NCBI RefSeq assembly: GCF_026247885.1
Contig: NZ_CP110921.1
Coordinates: 1,917,001 to 1,981,000, forward strand
Direction: 5' to 3'
Length of the DNA: 64,000 nucleotides
From: Methylococcus mesophilus
GTDB lineage: Bacteria; Pseudomonadota; Gammaproteobacteria; Methylococcales; Methylococcaceae
The position numbers were made by a program, and so were the translations under genes. Positions 16,270-25,221 of this stretch are shown here, one piece after another; the stretch's first letter is position 1; every line of letters starts with the position of its first letter. A model generated the notes under the pieces. That model had not been told where the DNA came from and ran no database searches. It was given only the letters and a program-made list of their open reading frames with translations.

Positions 16270-16625
16270 AGACCCGGCAGCCTTCCGATGACAAACGGGC
16301 GCAGCGGCAGCCGCCCAGGCCTCTGGTGCGTCTGACGGTCATCGACAAACTGCTGCGCCGGCATATCGTGTTCGCCTGCCCCGAAGCCCACCTGGCAGTG
16401 GCGGTGATCACCCTGGCCATCGGCGACTGCATCGATCCGGACGACGCCCTCCGCGCCGAGGCGCGGTACTTCCTCGCCGGCCCGGCCCTGGAGTTCTGGT
16501 GCGATGCGGTCGGCCTGGAACCGGCGTTCGTGCGTGCGATTGCGCACAAGGGCGGGTATCTGCCGAGCGAGACGGCGCACGGAGTCGGAGTGAAGCTCAC
16601 GCCGAAGGAGCTAGGACTTGCTTGA
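16266..16625 (+). CDS. phage protein of unknown function
   Basis: This 119-residue protein is coupled to the nuclease gene (ATGA) and overlaps the next start by 8 bases. The N terminus is basic and proline-rich. The body is helical with ADGUMENT-free features: RRHIVFACPEAHLAVAVITL, RAEARYFLAGPALEFWCDAV and a C-terminal GVGVKLTPKELGLA. The family is unknown to me. Its place between nuclease and replication protein suggests a small accessory or DNA-binding protein. Confidence 0.6.
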   Translation: MKTRQPSDDKRAQRQPPRPLVRLTVIDKLLRRHIVFACPEAHLAVAVITLAIGDCIDPDDALRAEARYFLAGPALEFWCDAVGLEPAFVRAIAHKGGYLPSETAHGVGVKLTPKELGLA

Positions 16626-18771
16626 CTTCAACGACGCGCTGCCCAGGCCGGCCAACCCCGCCGATCTGACGCTCCAGCGCGAAGCCGTGCGCGCCGATCT
16701 GCTGGCCCGGTTGCCGTCGGTGCTGAAGACCTTGTTCCCGGCCGGCAAGGTGCGCGGGGGTGCCTTCGCGATCGGCAACGTCCAGGGCGATCCGGGCGAC
16801 AGCCTGGAAGTGGCGCTTTCGGGCGAAAAGGCCGGGTTGTGGTATGACCATGCGACCGGCGAGGGCGGGGATCTCTTCGCCTTGATCGCCGCTGTCCACG
16901 GCCTGGAGACGCACGGCCAATTCGCCGAGGTGATGGCTCTGGCCGGTCAGCTGTTGGGTACGGCGCGGGTCGAACCGACACCGCTGCGGGAGAAAGCCCC
17001 GGTGGATCGGCTCGGCCCCGCCACGGCGAAGTGGGACTACGTCGCGGCGGACGGCACGCTGATCGCCTGCGTCTACCGCTACGACCCGCCCACCGGCAAG
17101 GAATTCCGGCCGTGGGACGTGCGCGCCCGCCTGTGGCGCGCCCCCGACCCGCGTCCGCTCTACAACTTGCCGGCGATCGCCCAGGCGAAGGAGGTGGTGC
17201 TGGTCGAGGGCGAACGGTGCGCCGACGCGCTGGTCCATCAGGGTGTAGCCGCCACCACGGCGATGAACGGGGCCAAGGCGCCGATCGACAAGACCGACTG
17301 GTCGCCGCTCCGGGGCAAGGCCGTGCTGATCTGGCCGGATCGGGATGCGCCGGGCTGGGACTATGCGGAGAACGCCGCCCGCGCTTGTGTGACGGCTGGC
17401 GCGGCCTCGGTCGCGATCCTCGTGCCGCCGACGGACAGGCCCGACAAGTGGGACGCAGCCGATGCCGTGTCCGAGGGCTTCGATTGCGTCGCGTTCATCA
17501 CCCACGGCGAGCGCCGCGTCATCGGGGTCGCACCCCCGGTACTGCCGACGCATACCTTGGGCGCCTTGCTCGATGATGACTCTCCCGTCCCGCCGGACCT
17601 GATCGCGCCGCGCGTACTCACGCCCGGCGGCCTCTTGGTGTTCGGCGGGGCGCCCAAGGTCGGCAAGAGCGACTTCCTGCTGGCCTGGCTGATGCACATG
17701 GCGGCGGGGGCCAGCTTCCTCGGCATGACACCGCCGCGTCCCTTGCGGGTGTTCTATCTGCAGGCGGAGGTGCAGTACCACTACCTGCGGGAACGGGTGA
17801 AGGGAATCCCCTTACCGTCGCACCGGATAGCCGAGGCGCGGGTGAACTTCGTCGCCACCCCGCAACTGCGTCTGGTCCTGGACGAGGCCGGCCTGGCCCA
17901 GGTGATCCCGGCCATTGTTCAGGCGTTCGGCAACACTCCGCCCGATCTGATCGCCATCGATCCGATCCGCAATGTGTTCGACGGCGGCGAGGCCGGGGGC
18001 GAGAACGATAACGGCGCGATGCTGTTCTTCCTGTCGCAGCGGGTGGAACAGCTGCGCACGGCAGTCAACCCGGACGCCGGCCTCGTGCTGGTGCACCACA
18101 CCAAGAAGCTCGGCAAGAAACCCTTCGAGGAGGATCCGTTCCAGGCCCTGGCCGGCGCCGGCAGCCTCAGGGGCTACTACAGCACCGGGATGCTGCTGTT
18201 CCGGCCGGACGAGACCCAAACCACCCGCCAACTCATCTTTGAGCTGCGCAATGGCGCGGCGCTCCCGGTGAAGTCCGTCGACAAGTTCAACGGTACTTGG
18301 CGCGAGGTGGTGAACACCGGGCGACGGGTCCTGCAGGACTACGCCGAACGCCTTGATGCCGAGCGCCGGCGCAAGCATGACGTGATCCTGCAGATACTGT
18401 TCGACGAGGCGGCGGATGGGCGCTGCTACAGCGCCACCCAGTTCGCCGAAGCCTTCGAGGGTCGCGCCGGATTGGGCGCGGAACGCACGATCCGCGAGCG
18501 GCTCTCGGTGCTCGCCACTCAAGGTTACATCAAGTTCTTCCGTAACGCCGAGGACTACGGACTTCCCCCGTTACACCGCAGCAAGTTCGGCTACCAATGC
18601 GTCGAGGGCATGGTGCTACGGCGGGAAGATCCCCCGGATCCTGACACCGGAGAAATCCCGATGTGGCCGGTTTCGGTCTACCCCTCCCACTACAAATGCC
18701 CCCAGACCGGCGCCTTGCTGCCGGTCGAAGACGCCACGATCTGGCTCTACCACGACGAGGACCATCCATGA
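16618..18771 (+). CDS. replication protein: primase-like/TOPRIM domain fused to RepA-type AAA ATPase
   Basis: This 717-residue protein has three parts. Residues ~70-115 (LWYDHATGEGGDLFALIAAV) resemble the start of DnaG-like primases. A TOPRIM domain spans ~190-290, with VLVEGERCADAL giving the catalytic Glu and WPDRDAPG the acidic pair. A RepA/AAA_25 ATPase follows from ~335, Walker A GGAPKVGKSD near 343-352, with a later VLVHHTKK strand. The last ~120 residues look like winged helix. Known relatives open and prime origins in phages and plasmids. It starts at TTG 16618 with AGGAG seven bases upstream. The repeat array directly downstream is a natural candidate for its binding site. Confidence 0.82.
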   Translation: MLDFNDALPRPANPADLTLQREAVRADLLARLPSVLKTLFPAGKVRGGAFAIGNVQGDPGDSLEVALSGEKAGLWYDHATGEGGDLFALIAAVHGLETHGQFAEVMALAGQLLGTARVEPTPLREKAPVDRLGPATAKWDYVAADGTLIACVYRYDPPTGKEFRPWDVRARLWRAPDPRPLYNLPAIAQAKEVVLVEGERCADALVHQGVAATTAMNGAKAPIDKTDWSPLRGKAVLIWPDRDAPGWDYAENAARACVTAGAASVAILVPPTDRPDKWDAADAVSEGFDCVAFITHGERRVIGVAPPVLPTHTLGALLDDDSPVPPDLIAPRVLTPGGLLVFGGAPKVGKSDFLLAWLMHMAAGASFLGMTPPRPLRVFYLQAEVQYHYLRERVKGIPLPSHRIAEARVNFVATPQLRLVLDEAGLAQVIPAIVQAFGNTPPDLIAIDPIRNVFDGGEAGGENDNGAMLFFLSQRVEQLRTAVNPDAGLVLVHHTKKLGKKPFEEDPFQALAGAGSLRGYYSTGMLLFRPDETQTTRQLIFELRNGAALPVKSVDKFNGTWREVVNTGRRVLQDYAERLDAERRRKHDVILQILFDEAADGRCYSATQFAEAFEGRAGLGAERTIRERLSVLATQGYIKFFRNAEDYGLPPLHRSKFGYQCVEGMVLRREDPPDPDTGEIPMWPVSVYPSHYKCPQTGALLPVEDATIWLYHDEDHP

Positions 18772-19547
18772 CAACGACCTTGATTCCAGATGGCGGACGC
18801 TCTGCCATCTGCCCCTTGAAATCTGCCATCTGGATCCAGACGGCAAACGTCCGCCATCTGGGAATCCATATACTTCAATCGCTTACGGTCCAGATGGCGG
18901 AATTTCCAGATGGCAGCGCCGCCAACTCGCCATCTGGCGCAACCGATTGTTTATACGAAACAATTTATGGAATTCCAGATGGCGGAGACTCCCTCCCCCT
19001 ACGGGGGAGAGGCGCGCTACGCGCCCTCTACCCGTCCCGTAGGGGCCTCTCTGGGCTAGGAGATAACGACGAAGGTGACCGGACCACGCTGCTGGCCCTC
19101 GATCTGGGTACTCACACCGGCTGGGCTCTGCATCAGCGGGACGGTACGGTCATCAGCGGCTCCGAAACCTTCAAGCCCCAACGCTTCGAAGGCGGCGGGA
19201 TGCGCTTCCTGCGTTTCAAGCGCTGGCTGACCGAAATCAAGCAAGCCGCCGGCGATCTGGATGCGGTCTATTTCGAGGAGGTCCGCCGCCATGCCGGCGT
19301 CGATGCCGCCCACGCCTATGGCGGGTTCCTGGCCCACCTCACCGCTTGGTGCGAGCACCACCAAATTCCCTACCAGGGGGTACCGGTGGGAATGATCAAG
19401 AAACACGCGACCGGCCAGGGCAACGCCAACAAGGCCGCCATGATCGCTGCGATGCGGTCACTGGGCTTCGATCCGGTGGACGACAACGAAGCCGACGCCC
19501 TGGCTTTGCTGCACTGGGCACGGGTGACCCAAGGGGGGGGCGTATGA
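18768..19547 (+). CDS. RuvC-like Holliday-junction resolvase
   Basis: The resolvase domain starts with LLALDLGTHTGWA (first Asp), continues with VYFEEVRRHAG (Glu) and ends with DDNEADALALLHWA (C-terminal acidic residues). This is the RNase H-fold RuvC pattern, and such enzymes process branched replicating DNA before packaging. Normally the protein begins a few residues before the first Asp, but no ATG, GTG or TTG lies in frame there. The nearest in-frame starts are ATG 18894 and ATG 18768, the latter overlapping the stop of the replication gene. Either would add a 60-105 residue leader translated across the repeat array. The start is therefore uncertain, and a non-standard start near 19065-19090 or a sequence error is possible. 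Confidence 0.7.
   Translation: MTTTLIPDGGRSAICPLKSAIWIQTANVRHLGIHILQSLTVQMAEFPDGSAANSPSGATDCLYETIYGIPDGGDSLPLRGRGALRALYPSRRGLSGLGDNDEGDRTTLLALDLGTHTGWALHQRDGTVISGSETFKPQRFEGGGMRFLRFKRWLTEIKQAAGDLDAVYFEEVRRHAGVDAAHAYGGFLAHLTAWCEHHQIPYQGVPVGMIKKHATGQGNANKAAMIAAMRSLGFDPVDDNEADALALLHWARVTQGGGV
18786..18983. repeat. iteron-like array of CCAGATGGC (9 copies, both orientations)
   Basis: CCAGATGGC occurs forward at 18786, 18890, 18906 and 18975. Its complement GCCATCTGG occurs at 18825, 18853 and 18929. An 8-of-9 copy sits at 18804 (GCCATCTG) and a one-mismatch copy at 18836 (CCAGACGGC). Three forward copies extend to CCAGATGGCGGA. The copies at 18825 and 18836 face each other as a 20-base palindrome with one mismatched pair. 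Nine copies in under 200 bases cannot be chance. The position right after the replication protein gene suggests an origin (iterons), a partition site or a multi-site operator. Confidence 0.85.
18994..19025. repeat. two adjacent GC hairpins after the iteron array
   Basis: TCCCCC-TAC-GGGGGA (18994-19008) is followed at once by GGCGCG-CTA-CGCGCC (19011-19025). Both are perfect stems with 3-base loops. They follow the last CCAGATGGC copy and may belong to the same origin-like structure. Confidence 0.6.
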
Positions 19548-20164: not shown

Positions 20165-20530
20165 ATGGAAAGGGACCCTGGCATTGAAACCCTCCTGGAT
20201 TTACAGGACCAGATCATTGATCAGGGCAGCGGATATTGGGTCAAGATCGAGGCGTATCAGGTTGAGCCAACGCCCGATGTGCCCCATGGCATCCGCTACT
20301 CACTGACACTGCATGAGCCCTACGGCAAAAGGATACTCGGTTATGACAATGCCCACGCAGTTAAACCGCCGAAGAAGTTCAAGTATGCGGGGCGACGTTT
20401 AACCTTCGACCACATGCATCGGCATGCCAGAGATCCAGGCGTTCCGTATGAGTTCAAGAATGCGCATCAATTGCTGGCTGACTTCTTTTCTGAAGTGGAC
20501 CAAGTTCTGCTGGAGGTAAAAAAGCGATGA
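20165..20530 (+). CDS. tumE: TumE-family toxin (DUF6516)
   Basis: This 121-residue toxin is the first gene of a two-gene TA unit. The family pattern is visible in GYWVKIEAYQVEPTPDVPHG, RYSLTLHEPYGKRILGYDNAH and FDHMHRHARDP, with the histidine-rich HMHRH centre. TumE proteins pair with a winged-helix antitoxin encoded downstream, as here. The biochemical activity is not obvious from sequence. Its stop overlaps the antitoxin ATG (ATGA). It is directly preceded by the palindromic promoter. Confidence 0.8.
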   Translation: MERDPGIETLLDLQDQIIDQGSGYWVKIEAYQVEPTPDVPHGIRYSLTLHEPYGKRILGYDNAHAVKPPKKFKYAGRRLTFDHMHRHARDPGVPYEFKNAHQLLADFFSEVDQVLLEVKKR

Positions 20531-20877
20531 AAACCATTGTGATAGGCATCATGCCGCAAGAGGACATTCGCGAGCGTCTGCTGGCCATCGCGCGGGGCGA
20601 GCTCAAGCCCAAAACAGGGGATCCCAAGATATGGTTCACTTCGATGAGATCGCTTGCAGAGGTCCTGAGCGATGAAAACAGGGCGCTGCTCAAGGTGATC
20701 AGAGAAACCAAACCTGAATCGATCACGTCTCTCGCGGCAACGACGGGCAGGAAGCCCGGCAACCTTTCTCGCACGCTGAAGACGATGTCCCATTACGGCC
20801 TCGTAGAGATGAAGCGTGAAAAGAATCATGTCCGCCCCATCGTCAAGGGAACGGAGTACAGGATCGTCGCTGCCTAA
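20527..20877 (+). CDS. tumA: TumA-family winged-helix antitoxin
   Basis: This 116-residue antitoxin has a MarR-like winged helix: SLAEVLSDENRALLKVIRE, then SITSLAATTGRKPGNLSRTL and MSHYGLVEMKREKNHVRPI. It is coupled to the toxin gene. It likely neutralises TumE and represses the shared promoter through the palindrome at 20140-20154. The gene order (toxin first) is that of TumE/TumA-type modules. Confidence 0.78.
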   Translation: MKTIVIGIMPQEDIRERLLAIARGELKPKTGDPKIWFTSMRSLAEVLSDENRALLKVIRETKPESITSLAATTGRKPGNLSRTLKTMSHYGLVEMKREKNHVRPIVKGTEYRIVAA

Positions 20878-21250
20878 TTCGAAAACGACAGAAGCACTGT
20901 TTCGAATTTCCTTGAAGTGGCTCAACCTGATCGATCGCAAGGACTTGGAACTTCTTCTGTGAACCGGGCTGCCCGAGCGGCCATCAGCGCCGGCGATCGC
21001 CTCCACTGCATGCGGGAACTTAACCGAAGTCGATAGCGTTTGAAGGTCATCGGGGAACGCTGCGGGCGGCTGCGAAAACAGCCGGCTTTTGGGCTGTCGC
21101 ATCCGAGGGCCGACGGGCGTAGAGTAGCGCTCAAAGTACAGCAGGTGTGACCGAAGGGGCGAGACGCCCCGCCGCCGTGAGCGGTTGCGGGTCCTTCCCG
21201 GCTCCTGAGGGCTACGGGGGGAACGCGCGCGGGATTTCGCTAGCGTCAGA

Positions 21251-21416
21251 CTGCAAACCAAGGTTTGCAGGGTTTGCGGTTTGCACCCCCAGCCGGAGCG
21301 CACCACCCTGGAGGCCGCGCCGGTGCTGGCGCTCACACGGGAGCGCCCAACGCCCCCAGTGCAAACCTGGGTGCAAACCCCACCCTGCAAACCGGGTGCT
21401 GCCATCGAGGTTTGCA
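21251..21416. repeat. iteron-like array of TGCAAACC (8 copies, both orientations)
   Basis: TGCAAACC occurs at 21252, 21360, 21372 and 21386. Its complement GGTTTGCA occurs at 21262, 21278 and 21409, and a 7-of-8 copy lies at 21271. The copies at 21252 and 21262 make a 20-base palindrome (CTGCAAACC-AA-GGTTTGCAG). The array consists of two groups separated by about 75 bases. Eight copies in 165 bases are far above chance. It lies 150 bases upstream of the ParB-methyltransferase gene, with a terminator in between. Confidence 0.85.
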
Positions 21417-21442
21417 CCCTTGGGCTTACCTCATTTCCCAAG

Positions 21443-21474
21443 ACCCGCCCCGGTTCGCCGTCGGCGGGTTTTTT
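21443..21474 (+). terminator. intrinsic terminator upstream of ParB-methyltransferase gene
   Basis: Stem ACCCGCC / GGCGGGT with a 13-base loop followed by six T. It would stop any transcript coming from the repeat region, or act as an attenuator in the leader of the methyltransferase gene. Confidence 0.75.
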
Positions 21475-21566
21475 GTTGCTGCGTTACCTCGTGTCTACGG
21501 CTCGTTGCAGGTTCCGATCGGACCCTGCGCCGGGCCGTACTTTTTTGGGATTGCTACGAACCCTTC

Positions 21567-22961
21567 ATGTTGCAGGTCGAATACCGTCCGCTGGAAAAGT
21601 TGATCCCTTATGCCCGCAATCCGCGCACCCACAGCGTGGATCAGGTGGCGAAGATCGCGGCCAGCATCGTGGAATTCGGCTGGACCAACCCGATCCTGGT
21701 GGACGGGGCACAGGGGATCATCGCCGGGCACGGCCGCCTGGCGGCCGCCCGCAGCCTGGGGCTGGCGGAGGTGCCGGTGATCGAACTGGGTCACCTCTCG
21801 CCGGCCCAGAAGCGGGCCTATGTGCTGGCCGACAACCGCCTGGCTCTCGATGCCGGCTGGGACGAGGAGTTGCTGGCGCTGGAACTGGCCGAGTTGTCCG
21901 GTGCCGGGTTCGACTTGGCGCTGACGGGGTTTAACGATGATGAGCTGGAAGCTCTGCTGTCGATCGATACCGAAGATTCGGATGACGCCGAAGACCGCGA
22001 ACCCGAGACGGCCGATGATGTCCCCGAGCCGCCGGCGGCCCCTCTGTCGCGTCCCGGCGATGTCTGGCAGTTGGGCCGACATCGGTTGATCTGCGGCGAT
22101 GCCTCGGACCCGGACGTCGTCGCGGCGTTGATGGGCGGCGAGTTGGCCCGTCTCTGCTTTACCTCGCCTCCGTATGACAATCAGCGCGACTACACCTCCG
22201 GCGGCATCGGCGACTGGGACGGCCTGATGCGCGGCGTGTTCGCCCAGTTACCGCTGACCGACGATGCCCAGGTGTTGGTGAATCTGGGGCTGATCCATCG
22301 CGACAACGAGGTGATCCCCTACTGGGATCCCTGGCTGGGGTGGATGCGGACCCAGGGCTGGCGCCGTTTCGGCTGGTACGTCTGGGACCAGGGGCCGGGG
22401 ATGCCGGGCGACTGGGCGGGACGCTTGGCGCCGAGCTTCGAGTTCGTGTTCCACTTCAACCGTCAGAGCCGCAAGCCCAACAAAACCGTGGCCTGCAAGT
22501 TCGCAGGTCAGGAGACGCACCTCCGCCAGGACGGCAGTTCCACCGCCCTGCGTGGCAAGGACGGTGAGGTCGGCGGTTGGACCCATGCGGGTCAACCGAC
22601 CCAGGACCGCCGGATCCCCGATTCCGTCATCCGCATCATGCGCCACAAGGGCAAGATCGGACGGGACATCGACCACCCGGCGGTGTTTCCCGTGGCGCTG
22701 CCGGAGTTTGTCCTGACCGCCTACTCGGATCCGGACGATCCGGTGTATGAACCTTTTGGCGGTTCGGGGACCAGCCTGCTGGCAGCGGAGCGCACCGGGC
22801 GCCGGGGGTATGCGGTGGAGATCGCGCCGGGGTATGTGGATGTCGCGATCCTGCGTTTCCGTCAGAGTTTTCCGGCCATCCCGGTGACACTGCTAGACAC
22901 CGGCGAAACTTGGGAAGTGGTTGCCTCCCAGCGGCAAGCGATACAGACGACGGCTGGATGA
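21567..22961 (+). CDS. ParB-like domain fused to DNA methyltransferase (TSPPY type)
   Basis: This 464-residue fusion has a ParB/Srx-fold domain at residues 1-110 (IPYARNPRTHS, IIAGHGRLAAA with the GHGR motif). The beta-class methyltransferase part has motif IV TSPPY at 199-203 and motif I EPFGGSGTS near the C terminus. TSPPY is the usual sequence of N4-cytosine enzymes, though some adenine enzymes share it. Such fusions are common in prophages and protect phage DNA from host restriction. No cognate nuclease is present. It is an ancestral paralogue of the gene at 23959, with which it shares layout but not the target motif. Confidence 0.85.
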   Translation: MLQVEYRPLEKLIPYARNPRTHSVDQVAKIAASIVEFGWTNPILVDGAQGIIAGHGRLAAARSLGLAEVPVIELGHLSPAQKRAYVLADNRLALDAGWDEELLALELAELSGAGFDLALTGFNDDELEALLSIDTEDSDDAEDREPETADDVPEPPAAPLSRPGDVWQLGRHRLICGDASDPDVVAALMGGELARLCFTSPPYDNQRDYTSGGIGDWDGLMRGVFAQLPLTDDAQVLVNLGLIHRDNEVIPYWDPWLGWMRTQGWRRFGWYVWDQGPGMPGDWAGRLAPSFEFVFHFNRQSRKPNKTVACKFAGQETHLRQDGSSTALRGKDGEVGGWTHAGQPTQDRRIPDSVIRIMRHKGKIGRDIDHPAVFPVALPEFVLTAYSDPDDPVYEPFGGSGTSLLAAERTGRRGYAVEIAPGYVDVAILRFRQSFPAIPVTLLDTGETWEVVASQRQAIQTTAG

Positions 22962-23634: not shown

Positions 23635-23916
23635 TCATTTTTCAAATCCGAGCGCCTGCTTCAACGCCGGGAGCGGGGTCGGTTCGACTTCACCGGCCCG
23701 GGCGCGCGCCAGCGCCGCCAGCAGCCGCTCGGCGTTCCGGGGCGAACGCAGCAGATGCGCGGTTTCCATCAGGCTTTCCAGCTCATCGGCCGCAATCATG
23801 GCGACGGCCCCACCGGAACGGCGGCGGATGATGATCACCTCACAATCATCGACGGTGCGATCCATCAGCGATTCGAGTTGCTCGCGGGCCCGGCTGTAGG
23901 TGATTTCGAGCGTCAT
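23635..23916 (-). CDS. Phd/YefM-type antitoxin without its usual toxin
   Basis: This 93-residue protein shows the YefM pattern: ITYSRAREQLESLMDRTVDD, then VIIIRRRSGGAVAMIAADELESLMETAHLL. YefM antitoxins are normally followed by a YoeB toxin. Here the next leftward gene is the RelE-type toxin, which already has its own antitoxin, so this is an orphan or a third member of a three-gene unit. The gap to the toxin start is about 56 bases and contains a promoter. Confidence 0.8.
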   Translation of the reverse strand: MTLEITYSRAREQLESLMDRTVDDCEVIIIRRRSGGAVAMIAADELESLMETAHLLRSPRNAERLLAALARARAGEVEPTPLPALKQALGFEK

Positions 23917-23958
23917 GGCGGTAAGCACTTCCGGCAAAATGCATTCAATGTACAACGC

Positions 23959-25221
23959 ATGCGTCATTCCTGGGTAGCCGACCGGGTCGAGTCCTGGCCG
24001 GTCGACAAGTTGCTGCCTTACGCCTGCAATGCCCGCACCCACTCGGACGCGCAGATCGCTCAGATCGCCGCCTCCATCGCCGAGTTCGGCTTCACCGCGC
24101 CGATCCTGGCGGGCGCGGACGGGGTGATCGTGGCCGGGCACGGGCGCTGGGCGGCGGCCCGCCAGCTGGGCCTGTCCCAGGTGCCGGTGATCGTGCTGGA
24201 TCACTTGAGCCCCACCCAGCGCCGTGCCCTGGTGATCGCCGACAACCGCATCGCCGAGAACGCAGGCTGGGATGAGTCCTTGCTCAAGCTCGAGCTGACG
24301 GCCCTGCAGGACGAAGACTTCAATCTGGGCTTGACCGGCTTCGATGCCGACGCCTTGCTGGACCTTTTGGCCGACGAGGCATCAGTCACCGAGGGCCAGA
24401 CCGAGGACGACGTGGCGCCCGACGTGCCGGTGCAACCGGTCTCTCGGCCGGGCGATGTCTGGATCCTGGGCTCCCATCGGCTGCTGTGCGGAGACGCCAC
24501 CCTGGCGGAGCACTACGACCGCCTCCTTGCCGGCGAATCTGTGGACATGGTGTTCACCGACCCGCCGTACAATGTGAACTACGCCAACTCGGCCAAGGAC
24601 AAGCTGCGCGGCAAGCATCGCGCGATCCTGAACGACAACCTGGGCGAGGGCTTCTCGGACTTTCTGCTGGCGGCGCTGACTCCGATGCTCGCCCACTGCA
24701 AGGGCGCCGTCTACATCGCTATGTCCTCCAGCGAACTCGATACGCTGCAGTCTGCCTTCCGTACCGCCGGCGGCCACTGGTCGACGTTCATCATCTGGGC
24801 CAAGAACACGTTTACCCTGGGCCGTGCAGATTACCAGCGCCAGTACGAACCGATCCTGTACGGTTGGGCCGCAGGCGCCCAGCGCCATTGGTGCGGCGAT
24901 CGTGACCAAGGCGATGTGTGGCAGATCAACAAGCCGGTGAAGAACGATCTGCACCCGACCATGAAGCCGGTGGAACTTGTGGAGCGGGCCCTCCGCAATT
25001 CCAGCCGGCCCGGCGACGTGATCCTGGATCCGTTCGGCGGTTCGGGCACCACCTTGATCGCCGCCGAAAAGTCGGGACGGGTGGCGCGGCTGATCGAACT
25101 GGACCCGAAGTACGTCGATGTCATCGTTCGCCGCTGGCAGGATTGGACGGGGAAACAAGCCACCCGCGAAGCAGATGGGCTCGCGTTCGATGCCCTCGTG
25201 TCCGAGACGGCGGGGGGTTAA
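23959..25221 (+). CDS. ParB-like domain fused to N6-adenine-type DNA methyltransferase (DPPY)
   Basis: This 420-residue fusion has a ParB/Srx-type domain at residues 1-110 (LPYACNARTHSD, IVAGHGRWAAAR). Methyltransferase motif IV is DPPY at 201-204 (FTDPPYNVNYANS), and motif I is LDPFGGSGTTL near the end. The order IV before I marks beta class; DPPY is typical of adenine-N6 enzymes. It is the second of two such fusions separated by a TA cluster. The ATG lies in the leader of the divergent Phd-type gene. The likely role is protection of the phage genome from restriction. Confidence 0.88.
   Translation: MRHSWVADRVESWPVDKLLPYACNARTHSDAQIAQIAASIAEFGFTAPILAGADGVIVAGHGRWAAARQLGLSQVPVIVLDHLSPTQRRALVIADNRIAENAGWDESLLKLELTALQDEDFNLGLTGFDADALLDLLADEASVTEGQTEDDVAPDVPVQPVSRPGDVWILGSHRLLCGDATLAEHYDRLLAGESVDMVFTDPPYNVNYANSAKDKLRGKHRAILNDNLGEGFSDFLLAALTPMLAHCKGAVYIAMSSSELDTLQSAFRTAGGHWSTFIIWAKNTFTLGRADYQRQYEPILYGWAAGAQRHWCGDRDQGDVWQINKPVKNDLHPTMKPVELVERALRNSSRPGDVILDPFGGSGTTLIAAEKSGRVARLIELDPKYVDVIVRRWQDWTGKQATREADGLAFDALVSETAGG

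Follow-up and report, generated by a model that had tools for sequence, protein, structure and literature searches.

The alpha protein of phage P4 combines primase, helicase and origin-binding parts in one polypeptide, and the P4 sites ori and crr are composed of short repeats. At oriV of RSF1010, which is served by RepA, RepB and RepC, a separate initiator acts on direct 20-bp iterons that are accompanied by an AT-rich stretch and hairpin priming sites. In phage lambda, the iterons of ori are embedded in the initiator gene O. The available parts of the respective reports describe SaPI Rep and SCCmec Cch2 as initiator helicases that use a C-terminal DNA-binding domain to read repeats downstream of their own gene, SaPI5 Rep being a primase-helicase fusion (PMC7581432), and RepA and ori of PLE from Vibrio cholerae as replicon modules in which the DNA-binding domain and the origin covary (PMC8263062). 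The PLE system, as described there, has an N-terminal RepA_N domain and three iterons, was tested experimentally and is described together with the Odn nuclease (PMC8263062).

Here, an array of short repeats was analysed that is located directly downstream of a primase-helicase gene in the window (the whole 64 kb stretch of DNA under study). It most likely represents the iteron replication origin of a temperate phage, read by the upstream primase-helicase via a C-terminal winged helix. Like P4 alpha, the putative initiator is a single protein with primase, helicase and (predicted) origin-binding parts that is associated with short repeats, but its helicase and primase would belong to different families. 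A RepA-like helicase, putative iterons, moderately AT-rich stretches and hairpins recall RSF1010; in contrast to the separate initiator and direct iterons found there, the units alternate in orientation and covary with the primase-helicase itself. As in lambda, the iterons are located within coding sequence, but in the gene after that of the initiator. Going by the available descriptions, SaPI Rep and Cch2 are similar in their C-terminal domain, which is predicted here and would bind the repeats, and in the position of the repeats directly downstream. The present locus is set apart from them by its AAA_25 ATPase, its alternating units, a site within the reading frame of the next gene, and specificity residues that we infer across a broad family. 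Covariation of domain and origin between relatives is also described for PLE, from which the present system differs, on the same partial basis, in its C-terminal winged helix, its approximately ten units and a residue-to-base rule. The features of the locus are as follows (window coordinates).

16618-18771, plus strand: primase-helicase, proposed initiator (AAA_25, phrog_239, phrog_6088, translation)
18382-18540, plus strand: predicted winged helix-turn-helix, approximately residues 589-641 (AlphaFold2)
18481-18522, plus strand: recognition helix, residues 622-635, with the covarying Arg623 and Arg626
18768-19547, plus strand: RuvC-like resolvase frame; its ATG overlaps the primase stop (ATGA), phrog_159 match from 19068
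18786-18983, no strand: proposed iteron origin, an array with ten unit positions, nine matching CCAGATGGC with one mismatch at most
18786-18794, plus strand: unit 1, CCAGATGGC
18804-18812, minus strand: unit 2, GCAGATGGC, one mismatch
18825-18833, minus strand: unit 3, CCAGATGGC
18836-18844, plus strand: unit 4, CCAGACGGC, one mismatch (none in the second prophage)
18853-18861, minus strand: unit 5, CCAGATGGC
18862-18889, no strand: first long gap, moderately AT-rich
18890-18898, plus strand: unit 6, CCAGATGGC
18906-18914, plus strand: unit 7, CCAGATGGC
18921-18927, minus strand: unit 8, degenerate, GCCAACT core, position common to many relatives
18929-18937, minus strand: unit 9, CCAGATGGC
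18938-18974, no strand: second long gap, possible unwinding region
18975-18983, plus strand: unit 10, CCAGATGGC
18984-19060, plus strand: hairpin block downstream of the array (folding compared with shuffles)

The neighborhood encodes a Sak4-like annealing protein, a helicase, a Cas4-like exonuclease, a terminase, a portal and a head protease, and is therefore assigned to a tailed-phage prophage. A gene for a TumE-like toxin, followed by a small gene for a putative helix-turn-helix antitoxin (judged by reading the sequence), is found at 20165-20877. The same genome contains a second prophage-like copy with the same array, 97-98% identical over three long aligned pieces.

A previous sequence-only reading of this DNA had reported nine copies of the unit, two of them degenerate, within about 200 bases directly after a replication gene. 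This agrees with the nine sites within 18786-18983 that match CCAGATGGC at all positions or all but one: seven are exact and two, GCAGATGGC at 18804 and CCAGACGGC at 18836, deviate at one position. The array starts 14 bases past the 16618 stop codon. A further unit, GCCAACT at 18921-18927, is degenerate, and its position is retained in many relatives. The orientation count of four forward and five reverse copies had the two numbers swapped, the actual order of the nine being + - - + - + + - + (five forward, four reverse). The facing pair described as a palindrome is present at 18824-18845; it is imperfect in the window and perfect in the second prophage. A tandem or CRISPR-like array was rejected, as the orientation of the units alternates.

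In the whole 64 kb, CCAGATGGC is matched 29 times with at most one mismatch versus 24.9 expected, and chance would yield approximately 0.08 matches per 198 bases versus nine in the array; the excess is thus local. The exact CCAGATGGC occurs 130 times in the 4.34 Mb genome. Among the 100 of these 130 matches that were listed, 14 belong to the two arrays, and there is no sign of a third cluster. On the basis of these listed matches, a dispersed genomic repeat was rejected. In the related loci described below, the 500 nt that follow the gene contain 16.2 units per kb, compared to 0.13 per kb in the other 1404 kb. By genome count and by density in relatives, the motif is hence not equally dense elsewhere; equal density was an outcome that the sequence-only reading had named as speaking against it.

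The primase-helicase consists of a primase N-terminal half, an AAA_25 ATPase (Pfam match at residues 319-499) and a predicted C-terminal winged helix. PHROG matches are phrog_239 (DNA primase/helicase) and phrog_6088 (primase). The N-terminal half has no Pfam match to a TOPRIM model and is TOPRIM-like by reading of the sequence. An AlphaFold2 model, calculated with the window protein and 74 of 75 chosen loci as input (L160 omitted), has a mean pLDDT of 85.7 and places helices at residues 589-599, 606-612 and 622-635 and a strand at 639-641. In this predicted structure, the third helix of the helix-turn-helix comprises residues 622-635 and is preceded by that of residues 606-612. A Foldseek search of the winged-helix model against the PDB returned no match at an E-value of 0.001 or better; several of the weak matches are winged-helix regulators. 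The whole protein has no sequence match among solved structures, and a profile of the C-terminal part yielded one match there, with an E-value of 0.85. The family phrog_38526 (102 positions, function unassigned) matches residues 582-642 (window 18361-18543) and also the RepA of phage WO; stand-alone versions of this winged-helix domain may exist.

With the primase-helicase and four relatives as queries, at least 335 loci were identified; the window and the second copy bring the number of loci to 337. The C-terminal end and stop are present in 302 of them; 208 remained after removal of duplicates, 200 encode a protein of more than 500 aa, and in 190 of these the sequence extends 140 nt or more beyond the stop. 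A locus was labelled if an AG-starting 7-mer among its three commonest words had at least four exact copies in the first 400 nt downstream of the gene. By this rule, an equivalent array follows the primase-helicase gene in 163 of the 190 loci, including the window and the second prophage, with both orientations in every one of the 163 and a median of eight exact copies. Some of the remaining 27 have clear arrays in another register, and others show few units or none at all. Multiple copies of a single short unit beside the gene of a putative initiator, as expected of an iteron origin, are thus found across the family. One locus, L058, has a possible further unit type after the primase-helicase stop (AAACCTC/GAGGTTT, four copies, helix GVRSISER). 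Some relatives have four or five copies of TGCAAACC-like words downstream.

The unit sequence differs between loci and changes as a whole set. The most frequent types among the 163 labelled loci are AGTTGGC (86), AGATTGC (24), AGTTTGC (12), AGAATCC (9), AGAATGC (6), AGTGGGC (6) and AGATGGC (5), followed by ten rarer ones. Spacing was counted in all 163 loci, one mismatch per unit being allowed. The spacing 16,21,13,15 is present in 63 loci (61/86 AGTTGGC, 2/5 AGATGGC), the spacing 13,8,48 in 73 (among them 69/86 AGTTGGC, 2/5 AGATGGC and 2/2 AGTTTGG), and the spacing 7,14,18,49 in 25 (15/24 AGATTGC, 8/12 AGTTTGC, 2/5 AGATGGC). Loci of the same unit type, and to some extent those of different types, therefore have a common geometry, though not a universal one.

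With the unit written as AG-b3-b4-b5-b6-b7, its bases were compared to the residues of the primase-helicase in 155 loci with clear register; eight labelled loci (L181, L024, L136, L140, L185, L194, L200 and L210) were dropped for unclear register. A G at b5 occurs with Arg626 in 99 of 99 loci, and another base at b5 with a residue other than Arg in 56 of 56. Since the loci share ancestry, such raw counts overstate independence. After thinning, residue 626 and b5 still agree in 72 of 72 rows, and the next best column (0.889) is the neighboring residue 622. A weighted association over 713 columns puts residue 626 at the top under both weightings, for b5 as well as for the unit as a whole. On a tree of primase-helicase residues 20-540, residue 626 changes 21 times and b5 12 times; the tree yields seven independent pairs with branch support, every one of which agrees (p = 0.0156). 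These two approaches superseded a matched-pair column test that was poorly matched (mean pair identity 0.73 versus 0.81) and ranked residues 622 and 626 second and fourth, amid unrelated columns such as 710 and 56.

For b6, a G is accompanied by Arg623 in 141 of 143 loci. Asp623 is found in the other two and in one locus with C at b6, all three having G at b7. Residue 623 ranks first for b6 at one weighting and second at the stricter one, and the tree provides only three independent pairs (p = 0.25). No column of the recognition helix leads for b3, b4 or b7 in the weighted association over the 713 columns. Variant units with at least two copies occur within arrays at b3 in 27 of the 155 loci, at b4 in 11, at b6 in 3, at b7 in 7 and at b5 in none, as would be expected if b5 were strictly read. 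Taken together, the covariation supports binding of the array by the 16618 protein indirectly but strongly. A site that is read by a primase-helicase would, as a natural consequence, be a replication origin. In the code proposed from these data, Arg626 would specify G at b5 and residue 623 would act on b6 and b7 (Asp623 with G at b7). The loci L040 and L024 encode proteins with 96-98% identity over the part up to residue 540 and have the units AGTTGGC and AGCTTGG, respectively. They have the start of the recognition helix in common and differ in the 5' half of the unit, in residues 605-607 and in some other C-terminal residues. The helix before the recognition helix may thus read the 5' half of the unit, a suggestion based on few pairs, and the two loci form a natural pair for studying the difference in specificity.

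Several loci from other searches fit the rule. The phage WO of wVitA/wVitB (two near-identical records) encodes a RepA with the helix SERSIRER, followed by ten AGNNGGC units. The Eleftheria record combines the helix GERTIRER (R626) with four exact AGTTGGC, and the Shinella locus the helix KDTIRER (R626, Asp623) with five exact AGTTGGG, i.e. G at b7. In sum, the WO RepA and two loci on plasmid records conform to the 626/b5 relation. Five other WO places, in whose retrieved DNA a pattern search detected no such helix, show no such unit cluster; one of these, L350, stops 237 nt beyond the match and is hardly informative. AcaML1, which has a different helicase half, shows no such cluster either. 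Misfits are L181, which combines AGATTTG with R626 contrary to the rule, L024, which breaks it unless the register is shifted, and a detached winged-helix piece of WOVitA2 (ERNIRER) with no array in the 3 kb read.

The array is located in the 5' part of an open frame continuous with the RuvC-like gene, which the sequence-only reading had overlooked. Its position there could indicate that the resolvase or recombination machinery uses it as a recombination or resolution site. Covariation was tested for the primase-helicase and the RuvC-like protein, and on the same 59 of the 72 thinned rows the best RuvC column scores 0.862 for b5, compared to 1.0 for residue 626. Moreover, six loci (L141, L142, L145, L149, L158 and L160) retain the array with no RuvC homolog found after it, and none is annotated close to the array of phage WO, so that a resolution site appears very improbable. 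Conversely, most resolvase-bearing relatives also carry the array, whose absence beside a retained resolvase, with replication unaffected, had been put forward as evidence against an origin; exceptions with few or no units of the AG type are L066/L108/L146, L096 and L162.

The units might also be a mere side effect of a repetitive N-terminus in the RuvC-like protein. The resolvase frame is indeed open through the array in 110 of the 145 labelled loci with a RuvC-like match, compared to 15 and 23 loci for the two alternative frames, and all 110 open frames start overlapping or beside the primase stop, 92 of them as ATGA. However, the units occur in both orientations, and the frame is broken in 35 of the 145 loci that still have the array. 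Diversity among 53 distinct AGTTGGC-class sequences is approximately 0.08 in the units and 0.32-0.37 in the linkers, with no excess at third codon positions of the linkers (0.36, 0.37 and 0.315). A coding by-product is hence extremely unlikely; the low diversity of the units, the lack of a third-position excess and the broken frames show that the array is constrained as DNA. In most relatives, the site falls within the 5' portion of the RuvC-like gene, where the frame is open, yet evolves as DNA, not as protein, and the stretch encoded through it is probably a tolerated linker.

The sequence-only reading had left open whether the array is a phage or ICE origin or a partition site. A parS-like site bound by a ParB-like protein is suggested by a nearby ParB-like/DNA methyltransferase gene (frame 21147-22961, homology from approximately residue 141). 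The residue-base covariation, examined for the primase-helicase and the RuvC-like protein, points instead to the helix of the primase-helicase, and a different array, composed of TGCAAACC, precedes the ParB-like part at 21252-21416. The 16618 protein named as a possible binder is thereby favored, and a partition function of the iteron array is very unlikely. This second array type, TGCAAACC/GGTTTGCA, consists of eight exact 7-base cores, four per orientation, and is also found in the second prophage. Two ParB-like/DNA methyltransferase fusion genes, 23755-25221 and 21147-22961, are located close to each other in one prophage.

As an origin, the array would function as follows. The primase-helicase would bind the units through its C-terminal winged helix, and many copies of it would assemble on the set geometry of the array. 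The DNA would then open within or beside the array, the helicase would be loaded, and its own primase domain could start synthesis, perhaps assisted by the hairpin block. The two long gaps of the window array are 32 nt (53% AT, versus 33% in the 1.5 kb upstream) and 41 nt (61% AT) between 7-base cores. In relatives, the AT content of the last long gap is 0.50 versus 0.39 upstream and exceeds the background in 143 of 158 loci, some of the gaps picked, including that of the window, falling after the array through a chance match; the gap before the last exceeds it in 101 of 103. This enrichment is modest and does not support a strong AT-rich unwinding element. A flip of the GC skew at the array is likewise unsupported, with a sign change in 15 of 59 loci. 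The hairpins noted downstream exist as inverted repeats (arms 18996-19005/19036-19045). Compared to shuffled DNA, folding gave z < -2 in 40 of 49 loci sampled by class, and the window block with z = -1.57 is only weakly beyond chance (second copy -2.15).

The array is located between two co-directional genes with overlapping frames, and its hairpins could act in RNA. It might thus be an operator array by which the primase-helicase or another factor regulates the downstream operon or its own gene, with no role as an origin. Approximately ten units over 200 bp, a shared geometry and a covarying helicase as the putative reader are more than an operator needs, and we consider this explanation unlikely. 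Initiators often autoregulate, so that operator and origin roles can coexist.

The principle of an initiator reading repeats is already known from SaPI, SCCmec and PLE. In the literature searched, which was available in part, the present primase-helicase family and its residue-to-base rule look new. No earlier description of an array in this family was recognised in titles and abstracts among the matches listed, and no description of a phage WO origin was found among the matches listed or in the available part of PMC9203015.

The proposed origin and initiator provide a testable candidate pair for a little-studied, widespread prophage group and, should the rule hold, a candidate origin for the RepA-bearing Wolbachia phage WO as well. 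The family forms a natural set of putative initiator/origin pairs with differing specificities and raises the question how approximately ten separate units change their sequence together while their spacing is kept. The chances are roughly balanced that it has a readable origin-recognition code of the kind proposed above and has repeatedly switched specificity, with the units changing together and the spacing being kept. Such switching may be driven by incompatibility with other phages or by origin-directed nucleases such as Odn in PLE/ICP1. If this is true, origins could be located from sequence alone.
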